DNA of 64,000 nt from Ulota crispa (lineage: Eukaryota; Streptophyta; Bryopsida; Orthotrichales; Orthotrichaceae). The stretch's first letter is position 1; each line of letters opens with the position of its first letter. Position numbers and translations under genes: made by a program. The notes under the pieces were generated by a model that worked only from the letters and a program-made list of their open reading frames with translations, searched no databases and was not told the DNA's origin. The stretch lies in the NCBI GenBank assembly GCA_963920765.1, contig OY987248.1:811001-875000 (forward strand). Reading direction: 5' to 3'. Positions 34,549-62,764 of this stretch are shown one piece after another.

Positions 34549-36443
34549 CCCGGGTGCCCACGTCTGCAAGCGCGTCCCCACAAAACGAAACACTGAGAAG
34601 ACCTCCAGCTTGATCCCTCGGTACTACCCACACTCCCACTTGGCTGACTCACTGTATGTCTTCCCGGCTCATGAATTGATCAGCTCTGCTTCTACATAGG
34701 ACAAAAGCGATCCTCCAAGGCCCAATACCACATCGGCAAACAATTCGACCTGACTCTCAAAGGTATCTCCTCGCAACAACATACATCCCACCCCCGAACT
34801 CTCCACTGGCTAGTGAGCTTAGCTACTCTCATGCAGGCATGTCAGTGGTCCACTAGTCCAGAAAGTTAGACTGCAATCTGGAGATCAATGTATCAGGGAA
34901 AGTGGTGGTGACTGCTCAGATGTGAGAGATTGAAAGGGAAGGAGACCTGCAGAGGGTGATCGAGAGGGAGGAGAAGGTATGACGAGAAAAAGGCTGACGC
35001 ACATATTAACTCGGTGAGGAGAGCTCTCGCCAAACCGCCCGGCAAGGATGGTCGGCGCCGCGAGGTCGGGGTGTCACCGGGTCCCGGACGCCCCGTGAGG
35101 TGGAGATCAGCAATTAAGGGTTAATGGCCGCTGGTTACTGGTGAGGTGTTTAATTTTGCACGGGTAGTGTTTAACTTAACTTAGTACTAAGCTTACTGAT
35201 GGCTTTGATTTTGTCTTCCATCACTTACGTTATTTGGTGTGACTTCTGTCCACTTGGTTGGTGAGACCTGCTTGTCAATGATCGAGGAGAACCGTCGGTC
35301 TGTGATACAAGTACTGGAAGCCGATACGGCAGGATCAGCCAAAAGTTAGCTTGCACCTCAAACCGTGCCCCCACAAAATCTAGATGTTAGCTGGAGAATG
35401 TTCAGGGAACAATAAGCTTATTAGGACTTTGTAAACAGCCTTTGAGAAATATCCACTGAGGTAGGAGCACCCAATGCCAAAAGTGTACCCAATGGTTTTA
35501 CTCTCTACATAGGATAGTCATTGTAGAGCTTTAATCTAGGTGTAAATTAGATAGCTTATCATTTTGGATAAACTATTTGAGTATGGTTTATTTAAAATTA
35601 AGTTCTAGAATGATCATCTTATGTAGAGAATGATTGCACTTGGTACAGTGTTGGTATTAGGTGCTCCCATCTTAACATACATCTTTGTGTAGTTGTTGCA
35701 TGTAAGAATGTTCAAATGCAATCATGAGACTCTAATGTAATTGTTAGAACAAAAATTGGAAGCTCAACTTTAAAATAAGATAAAAAATATATGTAAGTAA
35801 AGAATTGTGCCTGCTAGCTAGAAAAAACTGCTAGAACTAACCATAGCACTCATCTTTAATAGATGGGATTATTTCCATGTTTGCTTAGTTGGGGGCGTTG
35901 GCTAAGCAAATAATTGGATATGAGTCTGACGCTTTTCAACAAAATAATAAGAATTTTGAAGTTAATTTTGCGATTAAGGTACAAACTACATAATGTTGTG
36001 AAATGATGAGAGAGGAGGAAAAAATAACCAAAACAAGGAATAAATTTTGGAAACATCTCGAGATAAAATTGGAGCAAAACCCTGATTTTTTGAAAACAGT
36101 GAAAAGGGAAGTATCAAAATATCTTCCTATGATTTTTTGTAATATTGAAAACGTGCCGTAGCAAAAGTGCCCCCTCCAAAAAAGTCAAACATGAAAAATA
36201 CCTTGAGATAAAGCTTATATCTTGTCATATTGCAATTGGATATTACTCGCTAGTAGTTCAAATTTGAAGCATGAAGGCGCCAGCGTAGTCTTCCATGCAA
36301 GTACACCCAACAACTTCCCTGGGGCTGGTTTCACATTGATGAGAGGAGGGTAGCAAAGTCAAACAAAGCGAGGATATATGAACTATGCAGGCTTTGTCAG
36401 TGATGCCACAACAAGCTTATGGAACGCTAACAATTGACTATGC
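34549..36443. promoter_or_regulatory. Acyltransferase upstream region and spacer
   Basis: The first several hundred bases should be the leader and promoter of the minus-strand acyltransferase gene. They are relatively GC-rich up to about 35110, then AT-rich spacer follows. No clear TATA box was identified and no other gene was seen. Confidence 0.4.
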
Positions 36444-36447
36444 TTAA

Positions 36448-36781
36448 CCCCTAAAGGATGTTGCCTAACAAATGTTTAAAGGATGTTGCCTACCAAATGT
36501 TTAAAGGATGTTGCCTACCAAGTGTTTAAAGGATGTTGCCTACCAAATGTTTAAAGGATGTTGCCTACCAAATGTTTGTATTTGTATAAGAACCATTTAA
36601 TACTTAAAGAACTGACTATATGATAAATGTTAAAAATTGTCCAAAAAATTCTAGTTGACAAGTAGTATATCTATGGCTTGACTTGAAACTTACAATTCCA
36701 ATGGGGTTCATGTCCTATCCAAATACCCCATCCATATACAACTTGAGAGTTCGAATACAAAACAGTAACATCTTTTAGGGG
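36448..36781. mobile_element. TTAA-flanked MITE with amplified end (334 bp)
   Basis: TTAA at 36444-36447 and 36782-36785. The left end is CCCCTAAAGGATGTTGCC and the right end is the inverse of CCCCTAAAAGATGTTAC. Non-coding. The left subterminal sequence has expanded into the tandem array annotated separately. Confidence 0.75.
36453..36577. repeat. 25-bp tandem repeat, five copies
   Basis: Five consecutive 25-bp units of the form AAAGGATGTTGCCTACCAAA plus TGTTT span exactly 125 bases, with only one or two substitutions. The unit starts with the subterminal sequence of the surrounding TTAA element. Confidence 0.93.
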
Positions 36782-41133: not shown

Positions 41134-42062
41134 ACTCTTGAAGGAACAATTGTTTTTATTATTTAGTTAATTTTGTGTGAAAGTCACTAAAAAGGGAATG
41201 AATAAATAGGTAGGAAAAATGTTTAAAAAAAAATTAATTGTAGGATCCTGCACTATGGGAGGTACTTGTGAAAAAAAAACAAAAACAAAAACAGCTTATT
41301 TTAGATGAAGAAGAATGAGATATTGACGGCCAAACTAGGAAAATAAGTATTTTTCCTTCCTACATTAAACTTTCACAAGCCTCTAATCACTCTTATGTAA
41401 TTGCTCTCCAAGAAGTTGGGGTTTAATTCCTCCATGTAGAAGACCATGTTAAGTATGTGTGAGAGTCTTTTCAAATGACTTGGAGGATTAAAACATTAAA
41501 TATAAATTCTTGCAATGCAGCTCATGAAATTTGCAAATACTCTTTGGTTGGCAAGTTTGGAGGCGTTACGTACCTGTCAAAAATCTGAATCTTATTGATC
41601 CAAATGGCAGAATTCAAGGAATCTTAGCCCACTACAACTTGAAATTTAAAAATAAAAAAATAAAAAATAAAAAAACCTAAATTGTTCAAAAAATAAAGTA
41701 CCAAATTTTACAAATGACATAAGGAATGGAGGGTTGGGAGTCTCCCAAGACAGGGCCACATCCACTCCACATTCCATTGCCTAGTTGTTCACACCTTGTG
41801 GCTATAAGGGTTGACCCTCTTTGGAGTCAACACCCTTACAAAAAAGAGGCCCTACCCAAAAAACCCATGCTCGCCTAATTTCAAAAAAGTCTTGATAACT
41901 TCTTCATTGAATGTTAGAATGAAGAAAAAATTAGATGCTTGTGTAGGTCTAGGAATTCTCCACCTTCAATAAAAGTTTCAAAAAATCTTACAAACTAATT
42001 TAGCTATAGGTACATGCCAAAAATCTCATTTGTCCTCCAAGGTGAAAATGATTTTTTAGGGG
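41134..42062 (+). mobile_element. TTAA element, 0.9-kb family, copy 1
   Basis: TTAA at 41130-41133 and 42063-42066. The left end is degraded (ACTCTTGAAGGAACAA) and the right end reads TTTTTTAGGGG. The interior aligns along its length with the copies at 57616 and 61843 (for example GATGAAGAAGAATGAGATAT, TTAGAATGAAGAAAAAATTA, TTTCAAAAAATC). Non-coding. Confidence 0.75.
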
Positions 42063-42287
42063 TTAAAGTGTAGTGTAAGGGCCTCATGCAAGGGCATTCT
42101 CACATCTATACCAATGGGAACAAGGATGGTGCCTAAGTAATTAGCAATGTAAACGCAAAATTGCCCTTGCATGAGGCCATCAACAAGCATAAACTTTGCT
42201 TGAAGAAAATATAGGCTACATGTCTTTTTGTTAGCAAGAGTGCCATTGTGTAATAGAATACCATTCCGCAATTTTTGTCAAATATGT

Positions 42288-42515
42288 CACTAGAAGAAAA
42301 ACAAGGATAAACGACTGCCACAAATCACAACGACTAGGTCACCAAAATTGCCTTGCAACCGCACAAACAACTGCACAACAACAGCTGCATGACAACTGCA
42401 CAACTAGAACTAGTCGTGCAATTGTTGTATAGTTGTATATGTGGTTGCAAGGCAGTTCTGGTGACCTAGTCGTTGTGATTTGTGGCAGTCGTTTATCCTT
42501 GTTTTTCTCCTAGTG
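42288..42515. mobile_element. CACTA-type MITE (228 bp)
   Basis: Ends CACTAGAAGAAAAACAAGG and an inverse ending CTAGTG, flanked by the 3-bp duplication TGT (42285-42287 and 42516-42518). The arms are about 75 bases and almost identical (GACTGCCACAAATCACAACG and inverse). CACTA ends with a 3-bp target duplication are the signature of the CACTA (En/Spm) superfamily. Confidence 0.8.
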
Positions 42516-45500
42516 TGTGTGCAATTATAAAGGCAACCAAAAAATGAATTTATTAAAGATACACTGATGTTATTCCATTAAGTATATGTGGTTCAAGAAA
42601 AAGTAGATTGAAGAATTGAGCATTCTAAATTTCTAATTACTATAGACCAAATTTTGGCCCACCTTCCTTTCAAAGAAGTTTCCAAGCCCATTATATATAT
42701 AATAGATTTCAGAACTTACACTAGGTTTAATTTTAAGGGAAACTTTTAGCCAATCTCTGCTCAATCAATAAAACTACATCAAATATGGAAGGTAGTTTTT
42801 TTCTTGGGCCTAGCTAAGATTCCAATTACATTGAGTTAGGGAAAGTGTTGCATTTTCTTGTCACATGTATTTTTAGACATATATAACTCTATCAAGCAAT
42901 TAATTTGGTCTTTTATTTGCAAAAGAATTCATTGCTTCATTGTTTGTGTCAACGTTAGACTTCAACATAATCATGTTTTTTTAAAACCATAATGCATTTT
43001 ATATTTGTGAAAAATAATGACCAACATCACTTTATTGAACTTGCAAAAGACTTGCAACATTTTCATTTAGCATGGAACATTTTTATAAAACATTGTTTAC
43101 AAGGTTGATTGATCTTATATTTGAGGGCAGACATGTTTCATTCTTGGACCAAGTTTTGCATTAGCTTAACCATAGTGTAAAGTAGAGCACACCTGAATAT
43201 GTTGAGTTACTCCAAATCTTGACCTAAAACGTGCTTAACACGTTTAGTACCACAAATTTCAATTTTGAACAAGAAATTAATGTAAATAGTCTCATGTATG
43301 AAGAAAATTATTTTACTTTATGCATCTATGTGTTCTTTGATACTTAAGTTGGTTATCAAATACTTGTATTGTGTAGGTTTTCAAATCTCTTGAGTAATAA
43401 TTTTGTAATACAAAGTAATATAATATTGAGAATTGGCACTGTTAGTGTTTTTAGTTTGTGAAAATGCAAAAAGAACCAATTGAACTTTGAGAGTACATGG
43501 TAGAAGCGCCCACATTTTCAAAAAAAAAAAAAACCTAACTATAGTGTATATGTTTGGCAATATTTAGTTTACCTAGGACTATGAAAAATTGTTTGGAGAC
43601 GGACAACGAAGGATGTCAGATGATAAAGCTCAAAAACCTCCCAAACACTATTTCAAAGAGCAAAGAATGTGTCATTTCATAAACTTAACTTTTCACTTAA
43701 AATAAATAGAGTCCATGTAGACTTCAAAAGGTGAGGTAAATGAATAAAAATAAAAGTAAATCCAAATATGTACCTAAATATAATAAACATAAAGGATTTA
43801 TAAAAAAAACCCTAATCTCCAGCTTAGGATCAACTTTGAGTTATTTGTTCCAAATTTGATCAATAAATATCAACAAACTACACTATAGAGAAGTAATCTA
43901 TAGATCATAGTCTGTAGCTTTTTGTTCAAATCACCATTTAGTTTTTCTTCTAAATCGCACTTTACAAGCATTTTTAGATTTAAAAAATCTATAGGCCATC
44001 CTTAACTTATAGAAATTAAGTTAGGCCACCCACCCTATTTGTAATACAACATACTTATTGTTCCCTTTGTGCTCCTATATACAAATTACAAAGGTTTCAA
44101 AAATTGAAACCTATGTTGTCATTGCATAATTGTTATAAATTAGCTCATACAATCTTGTTGCACAAATTGAAAAGCTTGATTCAAATACTGGTACTTTTTA
44201 GTCTTGCCATTTTCTTGTAGACAACCAAACAGAATTGTCAACTGATTGGTTTTTTGTAAACAACAAGACTTGAAATTTTGTTTGTGTTGAGGCTTAAAAC
44301 ATTTAGGTTAGAAAGAAATTGTGCCATTGTAAAAGTGTGGAAAAGTGAAAAACGAATGGGATTATTCTATAAACTATACAGTGCTTTACCTTTTCTAACT
44401 CTTTTTAAGGTTGTATTTGAATTAATTTCTCATCGTGGCTCTCTCTAACAAACAAATAGTCTCAGCTGCATGGAATCTTATCTTTGTTGAGTTAACTTCT
44501 TCCTGAATTTGGATTACGTTTCAACCTTTGCAAATACAATTTATTCAAAGGAATCAATAAAAGGTTTGGTTTTATTACTTGAAGTAGAAAAAAAAACACG
44601 ACATTTTTTTGTAATTGAAACTCTTTAAAGTTGTAAAGATGAAAGCAAATACATTTATAGGAGAAGTTACTTCGATTTGGTTGGATTGCATGCAAATTTG
44701 AGGAGGATGAATCCTTGTCATGAAAAATTAATTAAATAATTATTTATTTATTGCAGTTTAAAAATAGTCAAGAAGGGGACAAAATTTGTGACTTTTAGGG
44801 AAAATGTATTGATCAATATTATTATGAGAAAAAATCCACAAATGTGTACTATACTTTAATGTAGACATTAACCCCTAAAAGGATCATTCTCACTACAAGG
44901 AACAAAATGGATTTTGAGCAAGTTTATTCTAATCTTAAATTTAATCAATTTGTTTGGTTTTTTTTTTTTTTAAATTAAAAAGAGGTTTTGCAAGGGCTAC
45001 ACAAGGATATAGTTTTTATTGAAATCATATTTGAGGTTCAAAAGTTATAGGTGTTTTATGGGGTTTTTTCTTTTCTTTTAGGGACAAGTTGGGCATACCA
45101 TTTACCATTGACTTCTTCCTAGGGCAACCAATGAAGGCATGACCCTTCATTGCAATATGTCCAAAGTAATAGTGTATTAGATAAATAAATTTTTGTATTA
45201 GGTAAATACAAGAACTTTTAGAGTGTAATAGTTGATAGAGATTTGGTTTTTGTTTCAAATTATTCTCTTGTGGTTACCAATGAAAGTTCTCTTTCAATTC
45301 ACCATTTGAATATCTATATTTCAAATTGATTAGCCCTCAAAAATTTGGATTGCAAAAAACTCCAATGTAGTGTGAATTTCTAGCACATGTTGACTATGCA
45401 TGGCAAGTAGTAAGGTGTATTTCATGTCTATGTTGACCTTGAAAACTTGTGACAGTATGCCTAATATGATTTTGAACATGTTGAACAACTCTAGATAACA

Positions 45501-46004
45501 CCCATGTTGCAAAAAATATCCACAACATGAGGTCAAAGGGACCTAAAATATTTTGGACAAAGGTCAAAAAAATTATATCAATTTCAAATGATTGCGTCTC
45601 TCAAATTGTATGGGTTTAGGCTCAAGAAGATCTCAGCATGCCTCTTTGCATAAGTCTAATGCAAGATCTTATGGTTAGATTTGTAGAAAATAGAAACAAC
45701 TTGTTCTAGGATCAAATGACTAGAAATGGTAGTTCTTAGTATTTATGAGAGAAATTAGGCTTGGTTCGTTTAAGTGTTAAAGTTATAGTTCAAATGTACA
45801 ATCAGGTACAGTAAACTTACGATTTTTTTTTGCCTTCAGCCAACATTTAAGCAACTTCAGGAAGCCATATTTTCCTAAAAAATTGCTCAATTTTGAAACC
45901 GCAAATTGTATTGGAATCATAAAAAAGAGTACTATATGATTTGACAAACACATCAACATAATTGTACAAATGATAAAAAAAATTGGATGTTTTCTATACA
46001 CTAT
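42516..46004. other. AT-rich intergenic stretch
   Basis: No gene recognised. A solitary TTAACCCCTAAAAGG at 44868-44882 looks like one end of a TTAA element whose partner I could not find. Short ORFs here show no family features. Confidence 0.4.
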
Positions 46005-46800
46005 CTACCACCTAATACTTCCACCTCTTGCCAAAATCACCAGTTGTATCCGATTGGACATACTTGCAATAAGTGTTTGTAATTGCTCCATAGATACCTC
46101 ATCCCTTACCCTTTGAACTATGTGTATCATTTCTTGCTTGTTCTTTGGCCAGCTGTGGTAGCGTAGCAAATCCTTTAGTACCTCCCACAAGTTCTCTTTA
46201 GGATTCAAATCCAGTGAGTTAGGAGGCCAAAGTGTTTCTTTATATCGTGAGCTTTTCTCCACTCATATGAAAACTTGCCACAATAAACTGGAGCACCATC
46301 TTCCATAAGCATGAGTTGTTTGGGATGATCATGCATGAAGTAGAAGCTACTTGAAGTGCCCTTGTGTACATTGCAAACAAAATCTATTGTTGTTCTTTCC
46401 CCTTCCGGCATTATGACTATAGGACTTTTGTTAAAACCGTTGTAAGCACTCCAAACCATGACCAATGATCTACTAGATTTAAAGGTAGGTGCGAGGCAAT
46501 GGGATGCATATTCCTCATGAACCTTTTGTTGTACACAAATCTAGAAAGAGGTTTTTCTAGCTCAAATGAAGGTTCATTTGTCCAAATGACAGTTTTCCAA
46601 TCTTCTACTGCCCAATGACAATGTTTTCAAGCAAAGTCTAATCTTTTTATTTGTTGGACTATGTTAAGATAAGGTTTTTTACGTGCAATTCTATTTCCAA
46701 AACCCATTCTACATATATATTTACATATAATAATACAATGAACTTGAAATTTATGTGCAAGCATGGCAAGTGTTTGTTGGCAATCATTGTTGATTTGTCA
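46005..46800 (-). pseudogene. Decayed Tc1-type DD34E transposase
   Basis: Reading the minus strand across frameshifts gives a recognisable Tc1-like transposase. A helix-turn-helix tail comes first (LAHKFQVHC, then GFGNRIARKKPYL), then HWAVEDWKTVIWTNEPSFE, VMVWSAYNGFNKSPIV, LMLMEDGAPVY, WPPNSLDLNPKENLWEVLKD and a C-terminal SMSNRIQLVI segment. The first catalytic aspartate is replaced (WTNE in place of WTDE; codon 46576-46578). The second Asp (46298-46300) and the Glu (46194-46196) remain. They are 101 bases apart, which equals 34 residues after a one-base deletion. At least one stop and two frameshifts are present, so it is inactive. The N-terminal DNA-binding part beyond 46800 was not recognised. 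The transposon's own inverted ends were not found. Confidence 0.85.
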
Positions 46801-47716
46801 ACCCACAGAAAAAAAAACAGCAGCAAAGAGAAAGGCTTGAGTGCAAAAATGGAAGACAAAAAAAGCAAGGCACGGTGGAGCTGACAACATGATTGGAATG
46901 TAGCCCCAAAATATAGGGATGAAGGAGATCAAAAGGCCTTGCGGCAAGGAAGGTTTGAGGACCTCCACCATAAAAATTCAAATTGATTGCAGCAGCCATT
47001 GCCGCCAAAGGTGCTACCGGCAAACTTAAAAGCCAGCAGTAAATCAAGCGCTACATGTTGCAATGGGAATTTCTAAAATTCTAAAAAAAATACAAAGATG
47101 TGGAAAACTAGTCTAAGGATGAAACAACCAAATTTTGTGACCATCCATGAAATATACTACATGCAATTAACAAAAAAGTGACCACCTACCACCAAATTAG
47201 GAAGAGTGTCAAGGCAAAAATTTGTAAAATTATTGTACCCCATTGTATAATGTATAATTATTAGAGGTTGCCTCATCCAATATAAGTTTTTTTCTCAATA
47301 TTTTATTGGTTCATACTCTATGACTTTTATAGTATTGTGTTGAATTTGGATTCAATTGACCTGAATTCCATCCTTCCGTCCTATTTTGAATTAAGAGGTT
47401 CACTTCAGTTAATTCTCTTAATGAAATTTTAATGACAAGTTTATGGAAACACATAAAATTCCATCCTAAAATAGTATCCAAAATAATTTGTTATCAGTTT
47501 AAAAGAATAAAAAACCAGTTCTTAAGAAAAACTGAAACCCCATCTGATTACAAAAAAATAAAAAATAAAACTTTGGAGTTGTACACAATATAGTATTGTT
47601 TGGGAATTACTAAACCACACCCCTACTGGGACATGCAATTTGAAAAATATGCTGTTTTTTATATTCAAATTGGTCATTCATTCATGGCTTTACAGCCTCC
47701 TTGATAGAAATCAAGA

Positions 47717-47916
47717 NNNNNNNNNNNNNNNNNNNNNNNNNNNNNNNNNNNNNNNNNNNNNNNNNNNNNNNNNNNNNNNNNNNNNNNNNNNNNNNNNNNN
47801 NNNNNNNNNNNNNNNNNNNNNNNNNNNNNNNNNNNNNNNNNNNNNNNNNNNNNNNNNNNNNNNNNNNNNNNNNNNNNNNNNNNNNNNNNNNNNNNNNNNN
47901 NNNNNNNNNNNNNNNN
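47717..47916. other. Assembly gap (200 N)
   Basis: Exactly 200 undetermined bases. The round number suggests an arbitrary or estimated scaffold gap. ORFs that run through it are artefacts. Confidence 0.99.
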
Positions 47917-48236
47917 GTGGATCTTTTTGCAACATTTGTAAAAAGCAAAAATCCAAAATATAATACGTTGAAATTCAGATTTCAATCAAACTAATTTCCT
48001 AAACTTAGGAAATCAACCAAATGAAAAAAAAAGAGGATATTAGCTTACCAAAAAACTCATGTCTAGGCCATGACCAATTTAAAAAAAATCCCCCAAGTGG
48101 GCTAGAGAAGCATAGGAATTGTATTGAGTTTTTTAAAAACCTCCCTAGACACTGCCAATGACTTACACAAGAGCTTAAGGAGCATAAAACCTTTTTTTTT
48201 CAAAATAAGATAAACTACATCTCAAGATATTAATTA

Positions 48237-48756
<520 letters not shown>

Positions 48757-50667
48757 GATTTTCTAAGAGTTTGTTTCTGTATGTTGTTTCAAAATTTTGG
48801 AAAGAATTATAGAGTAAGAATTTCTTTTGAATGCATACTTAGATTGTTTGCATTTTTTTTTGTAAAGTTAAGTTTTTCCCTAAGTTATTGGAGGATTAAT
48901 AAGTTTTTTATTTTTATTTTTATGTAATACACATGCTTATACGAATACTTATTGTTTTTTTTTTTTAAGTTCACACAAAATGAGTGATTTTGAAAGAACG
49001 AGTAAAAAACTTAAGAAAATGACATGTTCAATACAACTCACATTGCATTCAATACTTTGAGTTTTTACTTTTTCTTGTTTGTTGGGACATTTCACTCTAT
49101 TTTATGAAAATATCATAGATGTTATTAAATTTATAAAAAAAAAATACAAGGTTTCCAACTAAACTGTAAGATTCTTAGCTTTTACCTTAACTACAAAATG
49201 TATATATTGTCAAATACAATATATTATTAGGTACATACAAAAATAAACATTTGGGCTATTTACCCACGTGTGCTTCTCATGTAAAAGTCTAAGAATGATG
49301 GTTGTTTTGTATACATTTTTGTGTTAAGCAATTATCATTGTAATACCATCACTACAAGGTAACAAACTCCAAATTTGACACAACCAAATTGATTAAATGT
49401 GTGTGGATTGACAAAAAATTGTCCAAATTGACAAAAATGACAGAAGTAACAATGTTCCACTGTAGTGCATGCAAGTCCAATCAAATATAACACATTTTAG
49501 TTTCATAATATTTTAATTTCAAAATTCACTATCTCTTATTGTAGATTTATAGTATTTTTTTTTCTTCTTAATATTGATAAAGAGGGTTGAAGTTAAATAG
49601 CATGCCATTTTGTGAGGCTATGGTAAAGAATCTTATATTTTTTACTTGCTAGAAATGTATGAGCTTTAGACATTTATTGTTGAGATATAAAATTGGGAGT
49701 TTGAATTGTTTTTTGGATTCAATGAGCTGGTTTTAGTCTAGAATAATGGAGGAGAGCAAAGTGAAGCACTGTCAGCATTGAGGCCAGATTATTACCATTA
49801 CATATGTTTGTGAATAGAGTTGAAACTTTTCACCTTGGCCCCACATAATGGCAAATCACCTAACCTCAGCAGAAAAAAAATATTGTTTTCTATACAATTC
49901 CTGGGTGGCCCAAACTTTAGAAACATGCTGCTGAAACAGTTGTTTTTAGAAATAGCATGTTCAAAGAGCCGGTTTCAAGGCTTGTGTGGCCCAGGTATCA
50001 AAATAACCTCACGGTTTATGAGCCTCTTACCTTAGTGCATTTAGAGCATCTCCACCAGTTGGTCGGTGGAATGACATGCCATATGGCTTGATCCGGCCCC
50101 TTCATGGAGAATTGGCTTGTTATATAATTCCCCTGTTCATCAGATTGAGTTTAAGAGGACACATTACAAGGTTTGAAATTAAATGCTATGCCAAAATTAG
50201 ATGCAATTTTTGGATGCTCCAAGCATCTTTGCCACATAGCATGGAATGCTGTAGGCATCTTTGCCACGGCAGCATGGGCAGGTCAATAGTTTAGACTTTA
50301 GAGAACTAATGGCAAATAAATTGGGGTCTCACCAACCATCAATGTAATAAATAAAAGTGTCAAAGCCATGATTCAAGCAGGCTACAAATGAAAACTACCA
50401 CAGTAGTTGAAAGTGCCTAGAGCCTTCTTTGGAGCGGTTGGGCAAAAGTTTGCCATCACCGTGTCAACATTGGACACTCTAAAATTAGAAATCACCCAAA
50501 GGCCATGGTAAATCCTAGGCCGGAGCCAAACAGTGGAGATGCTCTTATATTGTCAGTAAATAGGGTGGTTGAGCCATTAAGAAATGTCAATGATGCAATA
50601 GTCTGGTTACCTATAATCCCCCCCACCCACCCACTAAATCTGCAGTTGTTTCAACAAAGCCATTACC
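48757..50667. other. AT-rich intergenic stretch
   Basis: No gene or clear transposon ends. Short ORFs at 49820-50035 and 50076-50294 have no recognisable domains. Confidence 0.4.
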
Positions 50668-50971
50668 ATTAGGAAAAATATGGGGCCTTCAAAAGGCCTT
50701 TAAAAATGAATCGGTAGCCCCCCATTCTTTTGGTTCCCGATGTGGGGAACCAGCCTGCTGATGGCCAAAATATTTGAATTAAAAAAATCCAAAAAATAAA
50801 AATAAAAACTATTTTTATTATTTTTATTTTTTAAATTAAAAATTTCGAAAAAACTGAGGTGGCATCAATGATGCCACCTCAGCTTGCGCATGATTTTACT
50901 GGGAACTGGGTTCCTATGACTAAGGACCCCCCAAACTCAGGGCCTTATTGGGGCCCCATATTTTTCCTAAT
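50668..50971. mobile_element. MITE with 20-bp perfect ends and internal hairpin
   Basis: The left end ATTAGGAAAAATATGGGGCC is exactly inverted at 50952-50971. The interior holds a second palindrome at about 50857-50882, TGAGGTGGCATC and its complement around AAT. 304 bp, non-coding. Superfamily uncertain. Confidence 0.75.
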
Positions 50972-52951
50972 GTTTTTGGATTAAGTGCAATTTTTTTGAG
51001 TTCAGCTGCAGGCACAGGTGCATTTTCAGGAAGAAAAATAAAATAATTGACTTGATGGGTTTTGCAATTAATTGCATGGTCCGGTAGCTACAAAAGCATG
51101 AAAAATATCATGCAAAATATCCAGTTATCAACCAATTCTTTGGAGTCACTCCAGCAGCAGGGTTTTTTTTTTTGGGTGTTCTGACCAATGCTTATGTGAC
51201 TTTTTTTTGAAAATGGTTTGTAACTTGCAGGCTCCTTCCCTATTTTGTTGGAGTTGAAGGTGGCCCCTACGCATAGATTTTTGTAGCAGGATGGGATTGT
51301 TTTGTAAGCTGAAAGTGTTTATTGGTCATTTTTTGAAAGTATCCAAATAACCATTGGCATTACTTAATTATTGCATGGAATTGGATTAGGCAACACTTCA
51401 AACCATTTTAAAATGGTGACGTCAACTTTCAATTTGATAATAATTTTATGAAAGCCTAGGCTGCAACACAATTTTCATTATTGCAAATTGGCATTTTTTG
51501 AGTTTTTTTCCCTCTTTTATTTCAATAGGCTTGAAGCTCACCTTTTTCCTTTTTTTTAAATTTTTTTTTATGCAATTGGACCTTAAATTGCCCACAAAAA
51601 AAACATTGTCCAGCAGATATGAACTCAAAAGGAAAAGCAAGTGGCTGTCGGAAATACTCAACCACACTAATAAATGTCTATTTTTATTGGATATCCGCCA
51701 ATGAGTTACTTCCTAGAGCAAATAATGGGAGCAATATGATGAACTGCGAATCAAGGGTCTGCTGGAAAACAATTTATATCCTTTTTTCCTCTTCTTTTTG
51801 GACAGTTGACTAGTAAGTATCACAAAATTTCTAGTATCACTTCAAAGTTCTTATATTGTTTTGTTGTAAGCTTTATTACTCGAAAATCTTATCAAATAAA
51901 TCAATACTTAGCTTCAGCTTCATTGGATTCAGTCTTTTTGGAGCATAAAATGAATAGAAAAAACGCCGTGGATGCTCAAAAACGGATGTATATTCTGATT
52001 AGTGAAAATGCATCTAATTTTGTAGGATATGTTTTATTTTGTTCCCATACCACTTCAAAAGCTGCAAGGATAAAATCCGACTACTGAGCCTCATGTTCCT
52101 TATTCCATACCCTACTAAATTGATTAAAATTTGAATTTGAAGGTGTTCGATTAGTTGGGAACTGGGAAGGGTTGGATGCAACCACTATATAATCAATACA
52201 CTCATTCATTTGAGGTCAATGGTAACCAACAACATGAAGATTAAAAATAATAATAATAATAATAAATAAATAAATAATAAAACTTAATATGTAATTACAA
52301 CCATTAATTCATCACCATTCTACAATGTTATGATTTTATCACTTTCATGTGCAGATTACAATTTTTTACTTTATTTTAATGAGTTATATAAAGCATAATT
52401 GAAAACGAACACACAGAGGAAACAACAATCACTGAGCACAATGACATCTTTGCATAAATATATTTTCAAACCAAGTGAAGCATTATCCTACTTTTTATTA
52501 CACCGCAAATTCAATTTAGCACTTCATATTTACTATGGATTATCTGATAAAATTTACTAGTCACATTATGAATGTACACCTTACAAAAACATTGTATAGT
52601 ACATACAAACTGTACATACATCTATCTTATATGTACATGAAAGAATACATCCGCACTGTGATTGGCTGAGAGAGTGTTGTGGTGCAACTGCCAATGATCT
52701 ATTGTTAACATCTAATGCAGCCGTTCAATCTAATTGGTTAAAAGACAATGCTGTGGTATAACTTTCAATGATATGTCATACTTTGTTGTTAATCACCATA
52801 TGAGAGAAGGGTGCATGCTTAAAGTTGTTCACACTGAGTTTTAGCAAAGAACCAATAGGAGAGAGAAGGATTTATGCATAAAATGCTTTACACTAAGACT
52901 TTACTTTGAATCAAGTTGTTGCCTCTCTTGGTACAATGGGTACCTAAACTC

Positions 52952-53006
<55 letters not shown>

Positions 53007-53784
53007 CATCTATCTATCTATAATATGTATTTTTTTTGCCAAGTGGACTTTTCATAGTGTATAAATGTATAGCAACCTCAACATGACGTATGAAAAGGGT
53101 TATGTGAAAATAGAACTAATGCATATTGATTGGGGTTTTGGAACTGGCAAGGATGTTGTATTGAACACAATTTTGCAAATTGCAGAGGTCTTTTTTTTGT
53201 TAGATGAGTTTGCCTTCCAGCTTGCGTACAAATTTTATTTTCTCTAGCTTTGTAGGTCATTTTCCTCTGACACAAGGATTAGGTAAGGCAGTTGGCATAG
53301 TGAGCTTTTTTTTTGGTGTTTTTTTTAATTTTTTATTGCTTACCATTGCTTTGAATTATCTATTGAGGTTTAGGAATTTTATGAGCTAGAAGATTTCTTG
53401 ACAATAGAATTTTGGTACAAGTTAGGCCATCAAGAATTACCAAAATAGTTTTAGTAGCAAATTTACTCACAGAGAAAAACAACCTTATTGAAGACTTTTT
53501 CTGAGGTAAATCTCATTTCATATCACCTATTTTTGTATCTTTCTCAGGTTAATATTCTTCACTCATTTGAATTCAAAATACAATACAATTAGAGGGACCA
53601 GCTGTGCTCATGTTAATCCCAAATGTGGCATATGTGAAATGCGTTATGCAAAGGATTGAGCCCAAAAAGCCGCATGTCACATTGTGAAACAATGCTAGTG
53701 CATGCTGCGCAAAGAGCTACACCACATCTGGTTTTGGCATGCTTGCCATTTGACAAACATGATGTCAGCTTTTGATACACCCTT
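50972..53784. other. AT-rich intergenic stretch with microsatellites
   Basis: No gene recognised. It contains an (AAT)n/(AAAT)n tract at about 52246-52280 and a long TA-rich microsatellite at about 52952-53023. ORFs at 51498-52087 lack family features. Confidence 0.45.
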
Positions 53785-53980
53785 GGGAGGATGGAAGTTA
53801 TTTGCCCTGATTGTGCTGCCAAGCATTGGGTTAAGGAGCACGTAGAGATAGGTCCAACCAAGCAAACTAGCAATTCTCAATGTGCCGTGCACAAGGGAAA
53901 GTCAAACTCTCACCCTTGCCTCAACCTCCGCAACCTCTCTATGGGCTCTTTGAAGACCAAAGAAGTGTTCACCCACAAGA
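53785..53980 (+). pseudogene. Helitron helicase-like fragment
   Basis: The reading frame from 53791 gives MEVICPDCAAKHWVKEH, followed about 15 residues later by CAVHKGKSNSHP. This resembles the zinc-finger segment just before the Rep domain of plant Helitron proteins (C-x2-C-x-A-x-HW, then CC-x-GK-x-LP). The next residues (KVFTH-like) also fit, but the rest of Rep and the helicase are absent and upstream sequence is frameshifted. A remnant, not a gene. Confidence 0.5.
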
Positions 53981-54402
53981 CAATTATCTGTTGCATTTTT
54001 ACGTGGCACATTGCCCAACAATGAGCACATCCTTCTAGCATAGGACCAACATGGGAGAAAGGGGTACATGCGTAATGTGGTTTATAGTGAGGTTTTATTT
54101 TGAATTAGGTTGCTAGCATTTGTGAATTAATTATTTGAATATTTTTAATTGACCACATTTTGTAGTAGAATTACTAGCGCAAAATTTGTTTCTTACAAGG
54201 ATATTCTTGTTGCCTCCATTGGTACAACATGTACATAAACTAATACATAAACAAAAGATAATTTTTTATAAATAACATTAATTTGTTCCAACAGGTACAA
54301 GACCACATAGGAGGCTGGTTTGGTTGCAATCTGCCTAAAAAGGGGCAAAGAAAGTGAGAAATTTACATTAGACTAAAATAAATGAACTTTACATAACATT
54401 AA

Positions 54403-55309
54403 TCCCTAAAGGCCCAAGCTAGGTTTTCACCAAAACTGCTAGAAAGCTGCCATTTTTAGTACAAGTACCAAATTTTAGAAGAAAAAAAACATTCTTGGAC
54501 ACATGCAATCATAACATCTTGTAATACACTAGTATAAAAACGTGTAAAAAAAATTCAGAAATTTCCATCACATAAATTTTAAGATATTTGAGTTTGAATG
54601 GACAAAATGCAGGACAGCTACACTTCATAAGGTCACATTTATATAGGGATTTTTCAAAATGGTTGTAACTCTTTAGATTCATTCTTCAAGGCAAGTTGGA
54701 TACATATTTGAAAATTTTCAAATCATTTGGAATTGTACAACACATGGGAAAATAATAGTAAAAAAATGAAGTAGAGAATGATTCAAAACACTAACTTGTT
54801 AAGAATCTAATTGTGGAAATGAAAAATACAAATCCCAATGGTTGAAATGTTGAAATAAACAACCTACATCTACGTAGTACCATTTTATCTATTTTCCAAA
54901 ATATTGAGAATCAAGTAAAATAAAGGACTTTGAAGTTTATTTTAGAGTAGAGATTCCATAATTATTGGCAAATAAAATCTCCTCACATATCTTTCATCTC
55001 ATTGATCAAAATGGAATGATTCAAAGCTTTCCAAATATTCATGAATCTCCTAAACCAACTTCAAATTTATGTTTAGAAAAAATATCAAATCAAATTTGCT
55101 TGGATTGCCCACCCTAGGAAAAACATCATCTCAAGCCAAAACTTTTTACTCACAATTCCAAATGTCATGAAATTTAGCACAAAAGAAAGATGCTTCTTGT
55201 CCCCACCTTTTATTGAAATTTCTGCCTCAACGATGAAAACCTTCAATCAAAGGTACCTGCCCAAAATTGGTATGTTGCCCAAAAAAAATGTTCTTTGTGC
55301 CTTCTGGGG
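54403..55309 (+). mobile_element. TTAA element, 0.9-kb family, copy 2
   Basis: TTAA at 54399-54402 and 55310-55313. The left end TCCCTAAAGGCCCAAGC and right end CTTCTGGGG are diverged versions of the family termini. The interior matches copies at 57616 and 61843 in parts (GAAAATTTTCAAATCATTTGG region; ACATGGGAAAATAATA; AGGACTTTGAAGTTTATTTT). Non-coding. Confidence 0.75.
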
Positions 55310-55313
55310 TTAA

Positions 55314-57615
55314 GAGTGAACAAGAAAATGTGGTTTAAAGTATTTCAGCTGCATTACAAAATTGCCACTTGTGATAAAAAAAACATACATACATGAATAT
55401 TGCATAAGAAAACTATCTATTATAATCATTGCAAAAAGGAACCTTACTATTGTGTTTCTAAAGCAACTATTTGTTGGAGGCATACTTATTATTTGGTTGT
55501 AGCAATGACAAATATCATTTTTAGTGTATTTGTTTACATGCTAAGATGAGATCTATAACACTTCACAACTTTTCAAATGTGAATTTGAAATAATTTGTGC
55601 ACCCACAGTAAATCCTACTTTTTGAAATTTGAATCCTCACATTTTCTCATGTTGTGTCTCTATATGAATGATGATAAGATAGTAATGATCAATTGTTTTT
55701 CAAGAGTTAAGACCGAAGAATGTTATCATAGGTTGAAAAAGCTTAATGTCCAATTTGGATGTTTGAATGCCGAACTAACTTTAGCACAAAGGATATATTT
55801 TGCACAAAGGTAAAACGTGTTGAGAGTACCTTCTTAAAATGTGTTCTCTACACATTGGTGAAAACTAGAGTTTTCCAAGTTACTAACAAAGTGTCTGTTG
55901 ATCCCTTGAAGACTATGGAATACTCTAGAATTCCCAAATTTGCTAAGATGAGTTATTAAATGCAAATATAGAAAGAACAACTCAATGAGGACTTTCCCTT
56001 ACAAGTTGTAAAGTATGGTCCATAGATCATATTCATGTAGTTGAATCTACAAACACACTCACCTAGGTTTGAAAATAAATAATTAAATTTCCTTCTAAAA
56101 TTTATACAAAGTGAAAATCAGTAGTTTTAACAAGGTGATATTTCCTTTATTTATATAAATTTGAGTTATACTTGTAGGGGTAGCAAATGAAACCTGATTT
56201 TTGATTGCATCTCAAAACTATACTTGAAGAACTCCCGGGAGAACTCCTAACCAATCTTGTAATGATAGATTTTTAGATTGAAATAATCCCATACAATAAA
56301 TGTAGAATTGTCACAAAGAAAGTTTTAAAAATCTAGTATGAATAAATGCTAGACAACAAACACAAGAATATAGTAACATTGTTGGAAAAGAAGTTTACGA
56401 TTGTAGAGTAACTACTATGTTTTGCTAGTTGGTGCAAAATCTCCACTTTTGGTCCATAAGCGGTTACAATCAAGGTTTTTTTTTTTTTTGGCAATTTATT
56501 ATCATATTCGCAATTGTAGGATTCAAAATACACAAATGCAATGCGGTCCCCTGAGATTTCTACCTCACTTCAGAGGGCACATCTATGTAATTACTGTGCA
56601 GTTACAATGCAAAAAAAAAAAAAAAAAAAAACCTTGGTTACGATTGGGACTTTTACAAGCACCCTTCAATTGCAAGTTCAAAAGACACAACTAAAGGTGC
56701 ATTCCCACTTGCTCTTCTAAAAGAACAAATAGTGGTTGTAAAAATACTTTGCGTGGTGTGCGTTCCCACAAGGTAGGGGTATTTGAGGCCGAGCCTACCT
56801 CGCAGTCACATGGGGAGGCTTGTAAGAGCAGGTGTTAGAGACAATAGTCCATAACTTTTGGGATCAGATTGAGCTTAATTTCTCAAGAAATTCCCCGTAT
56901 CTTCAGGCTAAAGTGCCTTATTTTAATCGTTTATGGTATTTCTACCTTAGTCTAGGACTTTTGTAGTTGAAAATTCAAGCAAAAACAGAGATTTGAGAGA
57001 TTTGCGGGAGCTCCTTTGCAGTTTTTGATAATGCGAGCGCGAGGGCTGAATTACAAAAGAATGTCTGGTGACTTTTGCAAAACCTTTGGAGAGAAGAAGC
57101 CGAGAGACACAGACAGCTCCCTCCAGCGTGACAACTTATTTCTGCCAAAAGCGATTAGCAGTGTGACCCCCCCCCCTTCCCTTGATGATTACTGCCACGC
57201 TAGCAGTATTGACGTGTAAAACCAAGGTAATATGAGAATATTGAACACTTAAATTTTAAACCTAATTTCCAATCCTCCCGTTATGTTGTAACCAGCTGTT
57301 AATTTGGCTTTTTGATGAACAGTATTCCTTGCTAAATTTTTAAAACGATAAACCCAAACACCAAGTGAGAATGCAGCTTAATTCAATAAAAGTTCAAGCG
57401 ATGCTTTTTAGGATACTGCAACGGTGCAACCCCTACAAAATGCCTGGTTGATACTTTATGAATACCCCATCTTAAAATTGGATAATTGAATATTTTCATT
57501 AGGTGCAGTGATTCAAAATGTGATTTCCACAATTAATTTGAATGCCTTACATCATTGCTAAATGCATAAAGTTGAAATTTAACACCACGTTTTTTCACAT
57601 ATTTTGATCTATTTA
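55314..57615. other. AT-rich intergenic stretch
   Basis: No gene recognised. Two homopolymer tracts, T at about 56477-56490 and A at about 56611-56631, form the ends of a weak inverted structure. ORFs at 55595-55959 and 57016-57219 show no family features. Confidence 0.4.
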
Positions 57616-58599
57616 GCTCCTAAAGGACCAAGTTTTTTTTTTCTGCCAAAATCACTAAAAGCTGTCACTTCTAGGGGATGAGTAAGAATATATATTTTTA
57701 TTTATTTATTTAATTTCTTGGAAATTCAACAATACAATCTTGTCTTAGACTAGAAGAGGTACTTACGGAAAACAAATCAAGTCATTTTAGATGGAGAGGA
57801 GGGAGATATCTGAAGTAAAGGAAAAAGCTTTTTTTCCTTGCTGCCAGTAAATTTCAAAAGCTTTTGACCTCTCTTACATGAAAAAAATTGCTCTACCCAA
57901 AGTTGTGCTTTTACTTTTCTATGTTGTGATTTTTTTTTCTATGTTGTGCTTTTATTTTTCTATGTAGGAGATCAAGTTAGGTACACAATTATGGGAGAAT
58001 TTTCAAATCAATTGGAAATACACAACACATGGGAAAAAAACATTAAATAAAAAGAAGTATAGAATGAGTCAAAATACTACATTGTTAAGAATTTAATTAT
58101 TGAAATAAAAAATAAAAATCCCAACAGTTAGAATGTTGTAATAAACACTCTACTTCCTTTGGTTTAGTTTTTTTTTCCAAAATATGAAAAATTGAGTAAA
58201 ATAAAGGACTTCAAAGTTTATTTTAGAGTAGAGGTTCCATAACTGCTTGCAAACAAAAAATGCTCATAACTTTCACCTCATTGAACAAAAATGAATGATT
58301 CAAAGCTTCCCACTTATATATCAATCTAAAGAACCAGTTAAAATTTATTATATTAAAAAAATGTGAATTTTAAAGAAGTTTTTTGGGCTGCCTAGATGGG
58401 AAATCCTCCCCAAATTTTCAATTGTTTTTGCATAACTTCTTTGTCAAATGTCAAAATGAAGAAAAAATTAGATGCCCACGTGGATCTTTGAATTCCCCAC
58501 CTTCAATTAAAGTTTCAAAAAATCAAATAAATTAGCTTATCCAAAGGTACATGCCCAAAATCCCATTTGTCCCTCAAAGGGGCAATGGTCCTTTAGGGG
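57616..58599 (+). mobile_element. TTAA element, 0.9-kb family, copy 3
   Basis: The right end GGTCCTTTAGGGG is followed by TTAA (58600-58603). The left end CTCCTAAAGGACCAAG is preceded by TTAG (57612-57615), a one-base change from TTAA. The interior aligns with the other three copies. 984 bp, non-coding. Confidence 0.8.
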
Positions 58600-59190
58600 T
58601 TAAAATAAACAAAAATCAAATGAAACGGCCTAAGGTAGAGCCACCCATTCCCAACCAGGGTTCTATTCCCAACCACTAGGATGTGTTGCTTCCAACCACT
58701 AGGGTATGATGTTTCCAACCAGCCTATTTCCAAGCCTTGGAAAGCGTATTTTTTCCCTTTTTAAGATTAAGACAAATGAGGTCATGACATGTATCTAAAA
58801 AGAAAGTAGGACGTAATGAGCAAGAAAGTATTTCGGCTATGATCAGGATTAGGAGAGATTAGTGATTGTGTATGAGTTCAGAACACTTGATGCACTTCAA
58901 AATTTGTATATAGTTCAGTTTTGAGTGAAAAAATCTGAAAAAAACTTGTGTCCCAATATTTTGTACAAAGACACCAAAGAAAAATTTGGACCGCATTGTT
59001 GCTCTAATGTACTATCGTGCAGGAGCTTAAGTGATTGGGAATGGGTGGTTCTACCTTACATGTGGCCTATGTTGTTAACATGGCACATACCTGAGCAGCA
59101 TGGGTCCCAAGTCCCAAATAGACAAGTGGTAGTTGGATCTTAATAATTAGCATTACTTTAGTTGGAGCCCAAACTCACCATTTGTTTTTT

Positions 59191-59497
59191 GGGAAAATTT
59201 CATGGATACCCCTGAAGTTTGTAATATTTTCATAGATACCCTTCATTTTCAAAAATATCACAAATACCCTTGGATCAAATAAGTTAGGTGTTTTGTTATG
59301 CATGTCACTTCCTTCTCCCTTTGTGGACACACTACTTCTTTCTTGCTATACGTGCGCACAAAGAAAGAAGGGAAGTGGCATGCACAACAAAACAAATGCC
59401 TAATTTTTTTGATCCAAGTGTATTTGTGATATTTTTGAAAAAGCCTGTGTATCTATGAAAATTTTGCAAATTTCAGGCGTATCCATGAAATTTTCCC
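59191..59497. mobile_element. Mutator-like MITE with long inverted ends (307 bp)
   Basis: The outer end GGGAAAATTTCATGGATACC is inverted at the right (CGTATCCATGAAATTTTCCC). The arms run about 140 bases each and meet near 59345. Long inverted repeats suggest a Mutator-like element. The T-rich flanks (TTGTTTTTT and TTACTTTTT) could be a decayed 9-bp duplication, but this is weak. Confidence 0.6.
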
Positions 59498-60524
59498 TTA
59501 CTTTTTTATATACCCCCATGGAGTGTGCCCTCGATTTGCAACAGGAGGTTTCAAACCAGAGTTTAGTATGGGAGTTTTTGCAAGAGGAGCCTGCCATATT
59601 TTCACTCAAAATCTACATCTTTTCGCTCCAAAACCTACATTTTCTCACTCAAAATCTATGTCTTCTTACTCAAATTTACATCTCCTTGTGAGATACCAAT
59701 TTTTTGTTTTGTTTGTGCATCTAGCAAGGTGTGGAAAAATGCAAGCACTGGTTCTCTTATTTGACATAAAAACAAGTAAATTATTGTGAATAACCAAGTT
59801 TTTTCTTTTGCTAAGAGGTTTGAATTGAAAAGCATATTTAGTCGTGAATGTACCAAAAAGCTCTTAACAAAACTAAGCAAGTTTGATTCCATTAAACTAG
59901 TGATAAATTTTTTTAACAATGTTTGCAAATGTGGTTAGATTTAATAAAAGTTATATTTTTTGAAAGTAATGTACAAATTCAAAGTGACTGCATGTAAAAG
60001 TGCATGTTTAGTAATGTCATTGCTCTCTTATGCAAAAGGTTGTCATGTTTAAAAAGATTTGCCTTTAGAGTTGTAGAGAAGGAGTTGTGTAGAAACTACA
60101 CTCAAAGATTAAATGCACTATGAAAAGTTTGGCAAAAGGGACATAAAGCTAGTACCTTGCAAACAATGCTATGGATGAGAGGTTTTTGAGAATACCGAAG
60201 GTTAAGGGATGGGTGATATACTTTGGCCTTGGGCAGCAAATGTTTGATGGTTAATAAATTACACTAAAAAAAGGATAGTGACAATATTGTGGATGTATCC
60301 TTGTTTGTGATTGTTTTTTTTTGGATTTGTGCACTTATTTCCCAACTATTGGTTAGGACTTAGGACTATGCAAAAAGTGAGTTCTTTAGTGTTAAATTTT
60401 GATGTATGTAGCCTATTTAGCGTAGCTTTTTTTCACTTGAACTAATTATAAAAATTATGCATAGGATCGTTGGATTTTGGTTGACAAGTCTGCAGCCAAA
60501 CAACAGGCTTGCCAAAAGAAAATA
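59498..60524. other. AT-rich intergenic stretch
   Basis: No gene recognised. The ORFs at 59523-59928 contain repeated 'CTCAAAATCTACAT'-like units and have no domain. Confidence 0.4.
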
Positions 60525-60880
60525 CTCCCTCCGTCCCAAAATGATCTTCCTGTTGACCTTTATTTAGTGTCCTAAAATGATCTTCTTGTTGGAGGAGAGA
60601 GGGAGATAGCAACACTTGCACATAGTCCAAAAGCATGTGCATGCTAATCAATCCCATGTCCTCAAGTGAGTGGCCACCAGTGCTCTACAAAAATGCCTCA
60701 AAAATGCAATTTTCAAGCACTCTGAAACCACACTTTGAAAACTAATTTGAAACTCAAAATTTCAAAACAATAAGACGACATCAAAATCTATTCACAAGTC
60801 AAAAAATTTGAAAATGGTTATTTTTCAGCTTAATCTATAACATTTTGTGTAACAGGAAGATCATTTTGGGACGGAGGGAG
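60525..60880. mobile_element. Stowaway MITE, perfect 30-bp ends (356 bp)
   Basis: The left end starts CTCCCTCCGTCCCAAAATGA and runs 30 bases (60525-60554) that are exactly inverted at 60851-60880. Flanked by TA at 60523-60524 and 60881-60882. The terminal consensus and TA duplication are diagnostic of Stowaway. A second direct near-copy of the inner terminus occurs close to the left end (TAAAATGATCTTCTTGTTGG). Confidence 0.95.
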
Positions 60881-61146
60881 TAAAAAAATAGATGGCTAGA
60901 TTAGAGGACTTTCTAAATTTGATTTTGAAGAATTTTTTTGTAGAAGGAAAATAAAGGATTCTAGGGTATAAGGTAGGTACACCCAATGGCGTGGGTGTAC
61001 CTACCTTACCCTCAAAGTTTGAACCAACATTTGACAATTTTGGTTTCTTTCTTTTCGATGCAGTGAAGCTGCTACTCATCTGTGATACCTTTCTCAAATG
61101 ACATTCCAAATAAATCGTGGTAATGCTGATACCAGAATGTGCACCC

Positions 61147-61541
61147 TAAGGTGGAAGCACCCATATCCGATAATGCCCCATTGTCAACTAGTAGGGGTTG
61201 TTATTTCCACCGTGAGTAAGGAAAGGTGTTTTGGAATACGCTTTTCTGATTTTTTCAAGGTTGGGGCTACTTAAATCATGCCACATGTCCCAAAGTGAGG
61301 CAGGAAGTAATGAGTTGAAATTAGTATGGGAATTGCATATATCTAAACATAGGCAATGGATGTGGAACACTTTTTGACTCCCAAAATTCATAGTAATTTC
61401 AATTTTGCAAATAAAATTATGAAAAATTTGCAATCCCAATATTTCTTATCTTCCTACATGGGAAAATTATTTTTTGCCACAAATTCTTTGTAGTTTTCTG
61501 CATAATCACTTAAGTTATTGGCTATGGGTGCTTCCACCTTA
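61147..61541 (+). mobile_element. MITE with TAAGGTGGAAGCACCCATA ends, copy 2
   Basis: A 19-bp terminal sequence TAAGGTGGAAGCACCCATA is exactly inverted at the right end. If TA is the target duplication, the element proper starts AGGTGG. 395 bp, non-coding. The same family, inverted and more decayed, is at 28200-28620. Confidence 0.8.
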
Positions 61542-61842
61542 TTCCTAATAGCTTTTTAATGTAAGACATCATAAAGCCACAAAAACCAAACAACCATATG
61601 AGTTGTATGTAGCACTCCTCAATAAGTTGAAAATCTTGGTAATAAGTAGGAAGGTCTTAGAGTAAAAGATATAATTTAGAGTTATAGTTTGCCAGAAAGA
61701 AGTTCCTAGCATTGAGAATTGGCTATTAATTGATATTTTGGATCAAAAATTTATTGGTTTATGATATCTTACACTATACCAATTTTGAGAAACATATAGG
61801 AATCTGTAAATTATAAAATCAAGGTGAGGTCAAGCATGTTAA

Positions 61843-62764
61843 CCCCTAAAGGACCAAGCCCTTTTTTCTATGAAAGTCATTGAAAACTGCCTTTTTTGGG
61901 AGAATGTGTAGAAAAGTAGGAAAAGCTTTTTTGGTGATCCAACCATAGGAGCTTGCCTTAGATTATGCAAGGTACTAGTGGGACAAAAAAGGCTCATTCT
62001 AGATGCAGAGGAGTGAGATATTGACATCTGAAGTGAAAAAAAAGAAGTTTTTCCCCTGCTGCCCAATCATTTCAAAAGCCTTTGAATGCTCCTATATCAA
62101 AAAAATTACTTTACACAAAGTTGAGGTTTATTTTTTCCATGTAGAAGACCAAGTTAGGTTTGTGTGGGAGAATTTCCAAACCAATTGGAGGTGTGAATCA
62201 TACTTTGTAAATTCTTGCAATGCCAGAAGGTCTTGAAATTTGCAAATACACTAGGCAAATTTGGAAGCTTCATGTAAAATTCAAAAATTCAAACCCCATT
62301 GATCAAACGAATGAAAACCAAGGGATCTTAGCCTACTACAACTTGGGAAAAATAATAATCAAAAAACATACACTCAAATTACTCAAACATTTAAAGCACC
62401 AAATTTTACAAGGGGCAAAACAAGAATGGAGGTTTGGGAGTCCCCCAAGATGGGCACCTTCCACTCCACTCCCCTTTGCCCAAATTGTCCACGCCTTGTG
62501 CCCACAAGGGTTGACTTTATTTGGAATCAACACCCACTTATAAAGAAGAGACCTTGCCCAAAATGCCCCTTCTCACCTAGTTTTGGAAAATTCTTTATAA
62601 CTTTGTCATTGAAAGTTGGAATGAAGGAAAGATTAAATACCCATGTAGGTATTGGAAATTCCCACCTTCAACAGAAATTTCAAAAAATCACACAAATCAA
62701 ATTTGCTGTAGATACATGCCCAAAATTGATTTATCTCCCGAGGGGACAGTTGGGCCATTAGGGG
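61843..62764 (+). mobile_element. TTAA element, 0.9-kb family, copy 4
   Basis: TTAA at 61839-61842, then CCCCTAAAGGACCAAGCCC. The right end GGGCCATTAGGGG is followed by TGAA (TTAA with one change). The interior aligns with copy 1 across long stretches (CTTGTG-CACAAGGGTTGAC region; TCAACACCC) and with copy 3. 922 bp. ORFs at 62003-62761 are inside it and not genes. Confidence 0.8.

Follow-up and report, generated by a model that had tools for sequence, protein, structure and literature searches.

Elements of the piggyBac superfamily are best known from animals. The tip of T. ni piggyBac starts with CCC, and the animal piggyBac MITEs are non-autonomous TTAA elements that are moved in trans. CCC motifs are found across the superfamily, and in animals CCCTT is conserved more than any other motif (PMC10813416). 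In T. ni piggyBac, one end (LE) has a palindrome within bp 17-33, centred on base 25, to which cysteine-rich domains bind (PMC7351741), and in piggyBat the imperfect palindromes at one end are bound by the C-terminal domains (PMC11707139). piggyBac has previously been reported from plants (PMC2874221), and is tabulated among the superfamilies present in every group studied (PMC4438587). The table of the Ceratopteris genome gives it 1,230 copies and 122 kb, and that of the Stipa genome a single copy. Among titles and abstract openings of the open-licence literature on plants, mosses and bryophytes, no description was found of a plant piggyBac population like the one considered here.

Four repeats in a 64-kb window of the Ulota crispa genome (the whole stretch of 64,000 nucleotides analysed, positions 811,001 to 875,000 of contig OY987248.1) are old, gene-less copies of elements of the piggyBac kind. 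They are very probably non-autonomous members of the superfamily, moved by piggyBac transposases encoded elsewhere in the genome. We assign them there because of their TTAA edges, the clean empty sites of two of six testable elements, the PF13843 matches in the genome, the sister termini of transposase-bearing elements, and, in some subfamilies, a subterminal palindrome centred on base 25. As with T. ni piggyBac (6x67/6x68), the target is TTAA, the ends are asymmetric, and a homologue of the transposase is present in this genome. However, the host is a plant, the elements are non-coding and about 0.93 kb long, and the palindrome stems vary between subfamilies. The transposase-bearing elements are also longer, at about 5 kb instead of the 2.4 kb given for T. 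ni piggyBac (PMC2874221). A homologue of the piggyBat transposase of Myotis lucifugus is found as well, but the piggyBat palindromes are arranged differently, in three copies with the innermost at bp 107-120 (PMC11707139), and no TIR match is claimed. Compared with animal piggyBac MITEs, these elements have a plant host, are long, and reach a very high copy number.

The four elements of the window and their neighbours

All four elements, each of 0.9-1.0 kb, lie where the first-pass annotation had placed them, except that one start is better set at 57617 than at 57616 (Table 1). Reading the flanks confirmed TTAA or a one-base variant at every edge. The termini are CCCCTAAAGG-like as had been noted, with varying decay, and the common orientation also holds, the main mutual matches all being plus/plus. 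Decay away from CCCCTAAAGGACCA is unequal among the four, the poor ends being the left of 41134 (ACTCTTGAAGGAAC) and the right of 54403. The internal alignment that had been described for all four is real, but it is uneven. The elements at 41134 and 61843 are 72.7% identical over 780 bp and those at 54403 and 57616 are 77.4% identical over 399 bp, while 57616 aligns with 41134 and with 61843 in blocks, and 54403 has only short matches to either of these two. The four are thus related subfamilies, and not four equal copies.

The window holds additional members besides these, including single ends. Combinations of TTAA and TIR exceed chance: when at most 3 mismatches are allowed, the window has 12 of them and 20 Markov-shuffled windows average 0.05, and with at most 4 mismatches the figures are 17 and 0.95. 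The left TTAA of the element at 24181 begins three bases past the right TTAA of the one at 23554. No partner end was found for termini such as those at 2832, 11309 and 14316. A transketolase gene made up of several coding pieces spans window positions 8736-12807, and the lone terminus at 11309 probably sits in one of its introns. A RAM2-like glycerol-3-phosphate acyltransferase (GPAT; PF23270) is encoded at 32962-34593 on the minus strand, in a single open frame of 543 aa. Together with the transketolase it points to a land plant as host.

Table 1. Positions of the piggyBac-type features described in the text (window coordinates unless a contig is named).
Feature	Position	Strand	Length	Flanks and ends
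Lone terminus, between transketolase coding pieces	11292-11309			ATAACCCCTAAAGGACC read from right
Element of another subfamily of the common signature	23554-24169		616 bp	CCCCTAAATGCCC at both ends; TTAA both sides
Element	24181-24542		362 bp	CCCTTGAATGGCC / CCCTTAAACAACC; TTAA both sides
Element	36448-36781		334 bp	CCCCTAAAGGATG / CCCCTAAAAGATG; TTAA both sides
Non-autonomous piggyBac-type, subfamily A	41134-42062	+		TTAA / TTAA
Diverged copy, 68.6% identical to the L070 element	about 44868-45776	-	~0.9 kb	right TTAA at 45777-45780; left end approximate
Non-autonomous piggyBac-type, related subfamily (like L038/L024/L031)	54403-55309	+		TTAA / TTAA
Non-autonomous piggyBac-type	57617-58599	+		TTAG / TTAA; right terminus exactly CCCCTAAAGGACCA
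Non-autonomous piggyBac-type, subfamily A	61843-62764	+		TTAA / TGAA; left terminus exactly CCCCTAAAGGACCA
Transposase-bearing element	C3:13130262-13135288		5027 bp	TTAA both sides
Transposase-bearing element, 90% identical to the C3 element	C10:11524996-11530021		5026 bp	TTCA / TTAA
Transposase-bearing element	C2:15046195-15051296		5102 bp	TTAA both sides; ends paired by position alone

piggyBac transposases and the ends of their elements

The transposase domain of piggyBac (DDE_Tnp_1_7) is encoded in the same genome. A profile search with the Pfam piggyBac domain PF13843 gives 120 matches, with a best E of 1.3e-73 (116 candidates scored of 528), and no match in 14 control genomes. According to the earlier proposal, a TTAA-specific transposase of piggyBac type, present now or in the past, mobilises the non-coding elements. 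The abundance of these domains supports the proposal, as do the TTAA edges, the two of six empty sites, the sister termini, and the end anatomy of some subfamilies. Internal stops interrupt 110 of the 120 listed matches and 10 are stop-free; most of the copies are probably decayed, and introns could explain some of the stops. All three catalytic motifs (xDE, DNxx, and GVDxxDQ), and with them the catalytic DDD residues, are present in three of the loci fetched from the genome (L073, L074, and L075). A simple expression matches two of the three motifs in L076/L084, L078, and L086, one in L071, L079, and L080, and none in L072 and L077. A CxxC..CxxC tail, as in a cysteine-rich C-terminal domain, follows within 900 bases of the domain in 10 of 12 loci, a count in which the tail is in another frame in L075, L076, and L086, broken by a stop in L079, and found in two close relatives, L071 and L080. 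The L073 copy has no such tail, and the L085 hit is remote and was left uncounted. The 3' part of L073, beside its transposase copy, holds a long short-unit tandem repeat which translates as repeated HTYI.

The stop-free protein of L085 (2728-4155; 476 aa) matches the transposases of T. ni piggyBac (6x67, E 4.1e-20) and piggyBat (9c0f, E 5.8e-17), and in the alignment its DE and DN motifs coincide with the piggyBac ones. In its third motif, GGVNVGDQ, N replaces the catalytic D, so a stop-free frame is no proof of activity. The locus is either a decayed copy or a gene retained for another use. Elsewhere, there are pairs of transposase matches with equal or near-equal scores whose members lie on opposite strands at distances of 14 to 109 kb (G000:C7:18203169 and 18223004; C2:36765124 and 36779670; C10:676128 and 785346), hinting at inverted duplications.

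Three transposase-bearing elements of about 5 kb could be delimited. In two of them (L071 and L080, 90% identical) the match stops within one base of TTAA on the right, and on the left at TTAA, or TTCA in the second. The termini are CCCCTCATCGCC/CCCTTCATTGCC in the C3 element, CCCCTCATTGCC/CCCTTCATTGCC in the C10 element, and CCCTTGACCGCC/CCCTTCACCGCC in the C2 element, all of them sister termini of the form CCCYTNANNGCC and not exact CCCCTAAAGGACC. Among the genome-wide matches listed, the termini form a continuum (CCCCTAAAGGACC, CCCTTAAACGACC, CCCTTTAACGACC, CCCCTCATTGCCC). The right end near the L085 gene (CCCTTTAGCGACC) follows the pattern of the non-coding termini. Two other candidate right ends depart from the signature, one near L086 (CCCTTGCATGACC) and one near L078 (CCCTATACTGCC), and these, with the N in the L085 protein, slightly weaken the piggyBac assignment. 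The first-pass annotation had suggested looking for a piggyBac-type DDD transposase with the same termini as the four elements: transposases are indeed there, but the few ends that are readable are sisters and not identical. Among these few readable ends of the 120 matches, no transposase gene lies within exact CCCCTAAAGGACC termini. Likewise, none of the eight transposase places in the first 25.1 Mb of C1 is within 6 kb of an exact TTAACCCCTAAAGGACCAAG site among the first 100 forward sites listed, and a tblastn search of 70 loci and of the window detects no trace of these transposases. A terminus 1.9 kb downstream of the L073 transposase was considered as the end of that gene's element and rejected, as it is part of a truncated non-autonomous copy. 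Two of the transposase genes have an element ending in TTAACCCTTTAAAGACCACACACATTTT upstream of them (L084 1-129 and L085 1-137), suggesting another TTAA subfamily near piggyBac copies.

A likeness to piggyBac confined to the tips would point instead to Kolobok or to another TTAA-targeting superfamily. Kolobok too makes TTAA duplications (PMC9587614), and no transposase gene with exactly these termini has been found. However, Kolobok termini read 5'-RR...YY-3' in that source whereas those described here read CC...GG, and this genome is rich in piggyBac transposases and sister termini, which makes such an origin improbable. On the piggyBac assignment, transposases encoded elsewhere in the genome would recognise the tip, and in at least some subfamilies they may also recognise the subterminal palindrome through the cysteine-rich C-terminal domain. 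The elements would then be excised and inserted at new TTAA sites. Different subfamilies were probably served by different transposase lineages.

Genome-wide copies and their TTAA targets

Across the genome (275 Mb, 157 contigs), TTAACCCCTAAAGGACCAAG with up to 2 mismatches occurs 11,594+11,546 times, against 0+0 for a backwards control. For the wider signature TTAACCCYTNANNGMCC, with no mismatch allowed, the counts are 13,561+13,542 (27,103 in total), against 4+3 (7 in total) for its control, and forward and reverse are in balance. Taking two ends for each element, the count points to about 13,550 elements (13,500 in round figures), perhaps 12.6 Mb or 4.6% (roughly 4-5%) of the genome if every element were about 0.93 kb long. 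The figure is rough, since the count leaves out copies whose ends have decayed and includes single ends, and since some elements are shorter (616, 362, and 334 bp). Such a population, with transposase genes on the same chromosomes, contrasts with the low counts given for Ceratopteris and Stipa. The presence of piggyBac in plants was known before, and what is new is the scale and the register of the palindrome. We expect that annotation set up for the repeat superfamilies common in plants would fail to classify these elements.

The elements fall into several subfamilies, and in four of them the length is about 0.87-0.96 kb. Their TIRs begin with 5'-CCC, as do piggyBac termini, and are 15-16 bp long in two subfamily consensuses. 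Forty oriented copies, mostly from subfamily A with some others, yield a 937-bp consensus with no long open frame. Stops in all six frames of this mixed consensus and of the subfamily B consensus rule out coding capacity, in line with the earlier description of the elements as non-coding. Subfamily B measures 962 bp including both TTAAs, and has at least 39 long matches that are 91-94% identical to the query copy. Copies of subfamily A are 70-78% identical to 41134, with single pairs up to 88%, and from these identities to the query copies B looks younger than A. The two have about 290 bp in common at one end, at 70% identity. Subfamilies C and D are alike over their first 38 bases and otherwise differ in their interiors; their right ends (TAGGGGTTAA) are decayed, about 8 bases of the inverted repeat remaining. 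Eight stretches lying behind exact left termini without a near right end were checked as possible longer coding elements, and none proved to be one: six are subfamilies C and D with decayed right ends, and L067 and L068 are other copies. Ten ORFs from these stretches match no Pfam family at E 0.1.

The four parallel copies within 22 kb had been taken as a hint of local hopping or segmental spread, and this part of the first-pass annotation is not supported. The best pairwise matches among the four are 72-79% identical. Against 41134, 39 places elsewhere in the genome score 415-535 bits, above the 407 bits of its neighbour 61843, and the best of these places on the contig of 41134 lies at a distance of 9 Mb. 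The four copies differ in the ten bases read to each side of them (about 10-25 flanking bases were compared), and the further copy at 44868-45776 runs opposite to them. Density is near the genome average, from which about 6 exact signature ends would be expected in 64 kb; the window has 4. A local origin of the group is therefore very unlikely.

In 54 terminus pairs, T, T, A, and A are found at the respective flank positions in 43-50 of 54, with no preference in the bases beyond; the left sides of L009-L038 were chosen for TTAA and the right sides unselected, and the pairs are not independent, with a common right end or mispairing in L008, L017, L026, L032, L038, L042, and window 54403-56463. 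Both genome-wide search patterns contained TTAA, but the idea that the boundaries merely reflect an AT-rich genome and selection by pattern can safely be set aside, since TTAA is mostly present at right flanks and at both flanks of copies fetched by internal similarity, all unselected for TTAA, and the backwards controls gave 0 and 7.

For empty sites, the flanks of each element were joined and compared with the fetched loci and the window, giving a junction-spanning match to another locus for 6 elements. The single TTAA anticipated at such sites is clean in two of these six testable elements, L026 and L032, and not in the other four. The L026 comparison with L005 gives an empty site with a single TTAA and close flanks. 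For L032, one match in L006 and another in the window each read a single TTAA, and two further matches read TTAC and TAAA. L046 has a single CCAA at its empty site in L038, and three of the six comparisons are without TTAA: L038 (AAAA, GAAG), L006 (TAGA), and L054 (gapped). Neighbouring elements with one common TTAA are also present (L012, L013). The edge TTAAs and the two clean empty sites correspond to the 4-bp TTAA target duplication of piggyBac.

Subterminal palindromes

At one end of subfamilies A, B, and C/D there is a palindrome centred exactly on base 25, and the stems are unrelated. The C3 transposase element has the same register at its left end, and so does L081 at its 799 end. The centre is that of the T. 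ni palindrome (PMC7351741), while the stems differ from it. Base 25 is the centre of the top dyad in 5 of the 17 ends examined, which places a palindrome within bp 17-33, a trait that is not universal in piggyBac. At the C2, C4, and C1 transposase loci, the ends that were read do not have it. In the element at 41134, the end that carries it in better-kept copies is the right one, and it is decayed here. At the other end, A and B have a dyad with its centre at base 33, in contrast to the 63-bp arrangement with an insertion described for the T. ni right end.

The test of this register is post hoc, centre 25 having been picked after A and B had been seen, and gives a P at that centre of 0/3000 for A, 0/3000 for B, 5/3000 for C/D, and 8/3000 for the C3 element. 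When any centre is allowed at the base-25 end, P becomes 4/3000 (A), 0/3000 (B), 250/3000 (C/D), and 720/3000 (C3), the last two not being significant. The centre-33 dyads give 0/3000 (A) and 2/3000 (B), or 40/3000 and 184/3000 for any centre. A similar second score gives 1/2000 (A), 0/2000 (B), 182/2000 (C/D), and from 475/2000 to 1900/2000 for four transposase-bearing ends.

Tentatively, and with somewhat more doubt than confidence, these ends may reflect a radiation of piggyBac lineages in which the sequence of the palindrome has repeatedly changed and its register has been kept, at centre 25 and, in two subfamilies, at base 33 of the opposite end. If so, each non-autonomous subfamily would record a different transposase specificity, making a natural set of plant piggyBac end-and-domain pairs. 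If the palindromes do correspond to different transposases, a single genome would allow a direct test of how piggyBac ends and the domain that binds them have co-evolved. Over 45 single copies, the mean best dyad is 6.1 at the palindrome end and 5.8 at the other end, against 4.4 in shuffles, which indicates that the palindrome has been lost in many single copies.
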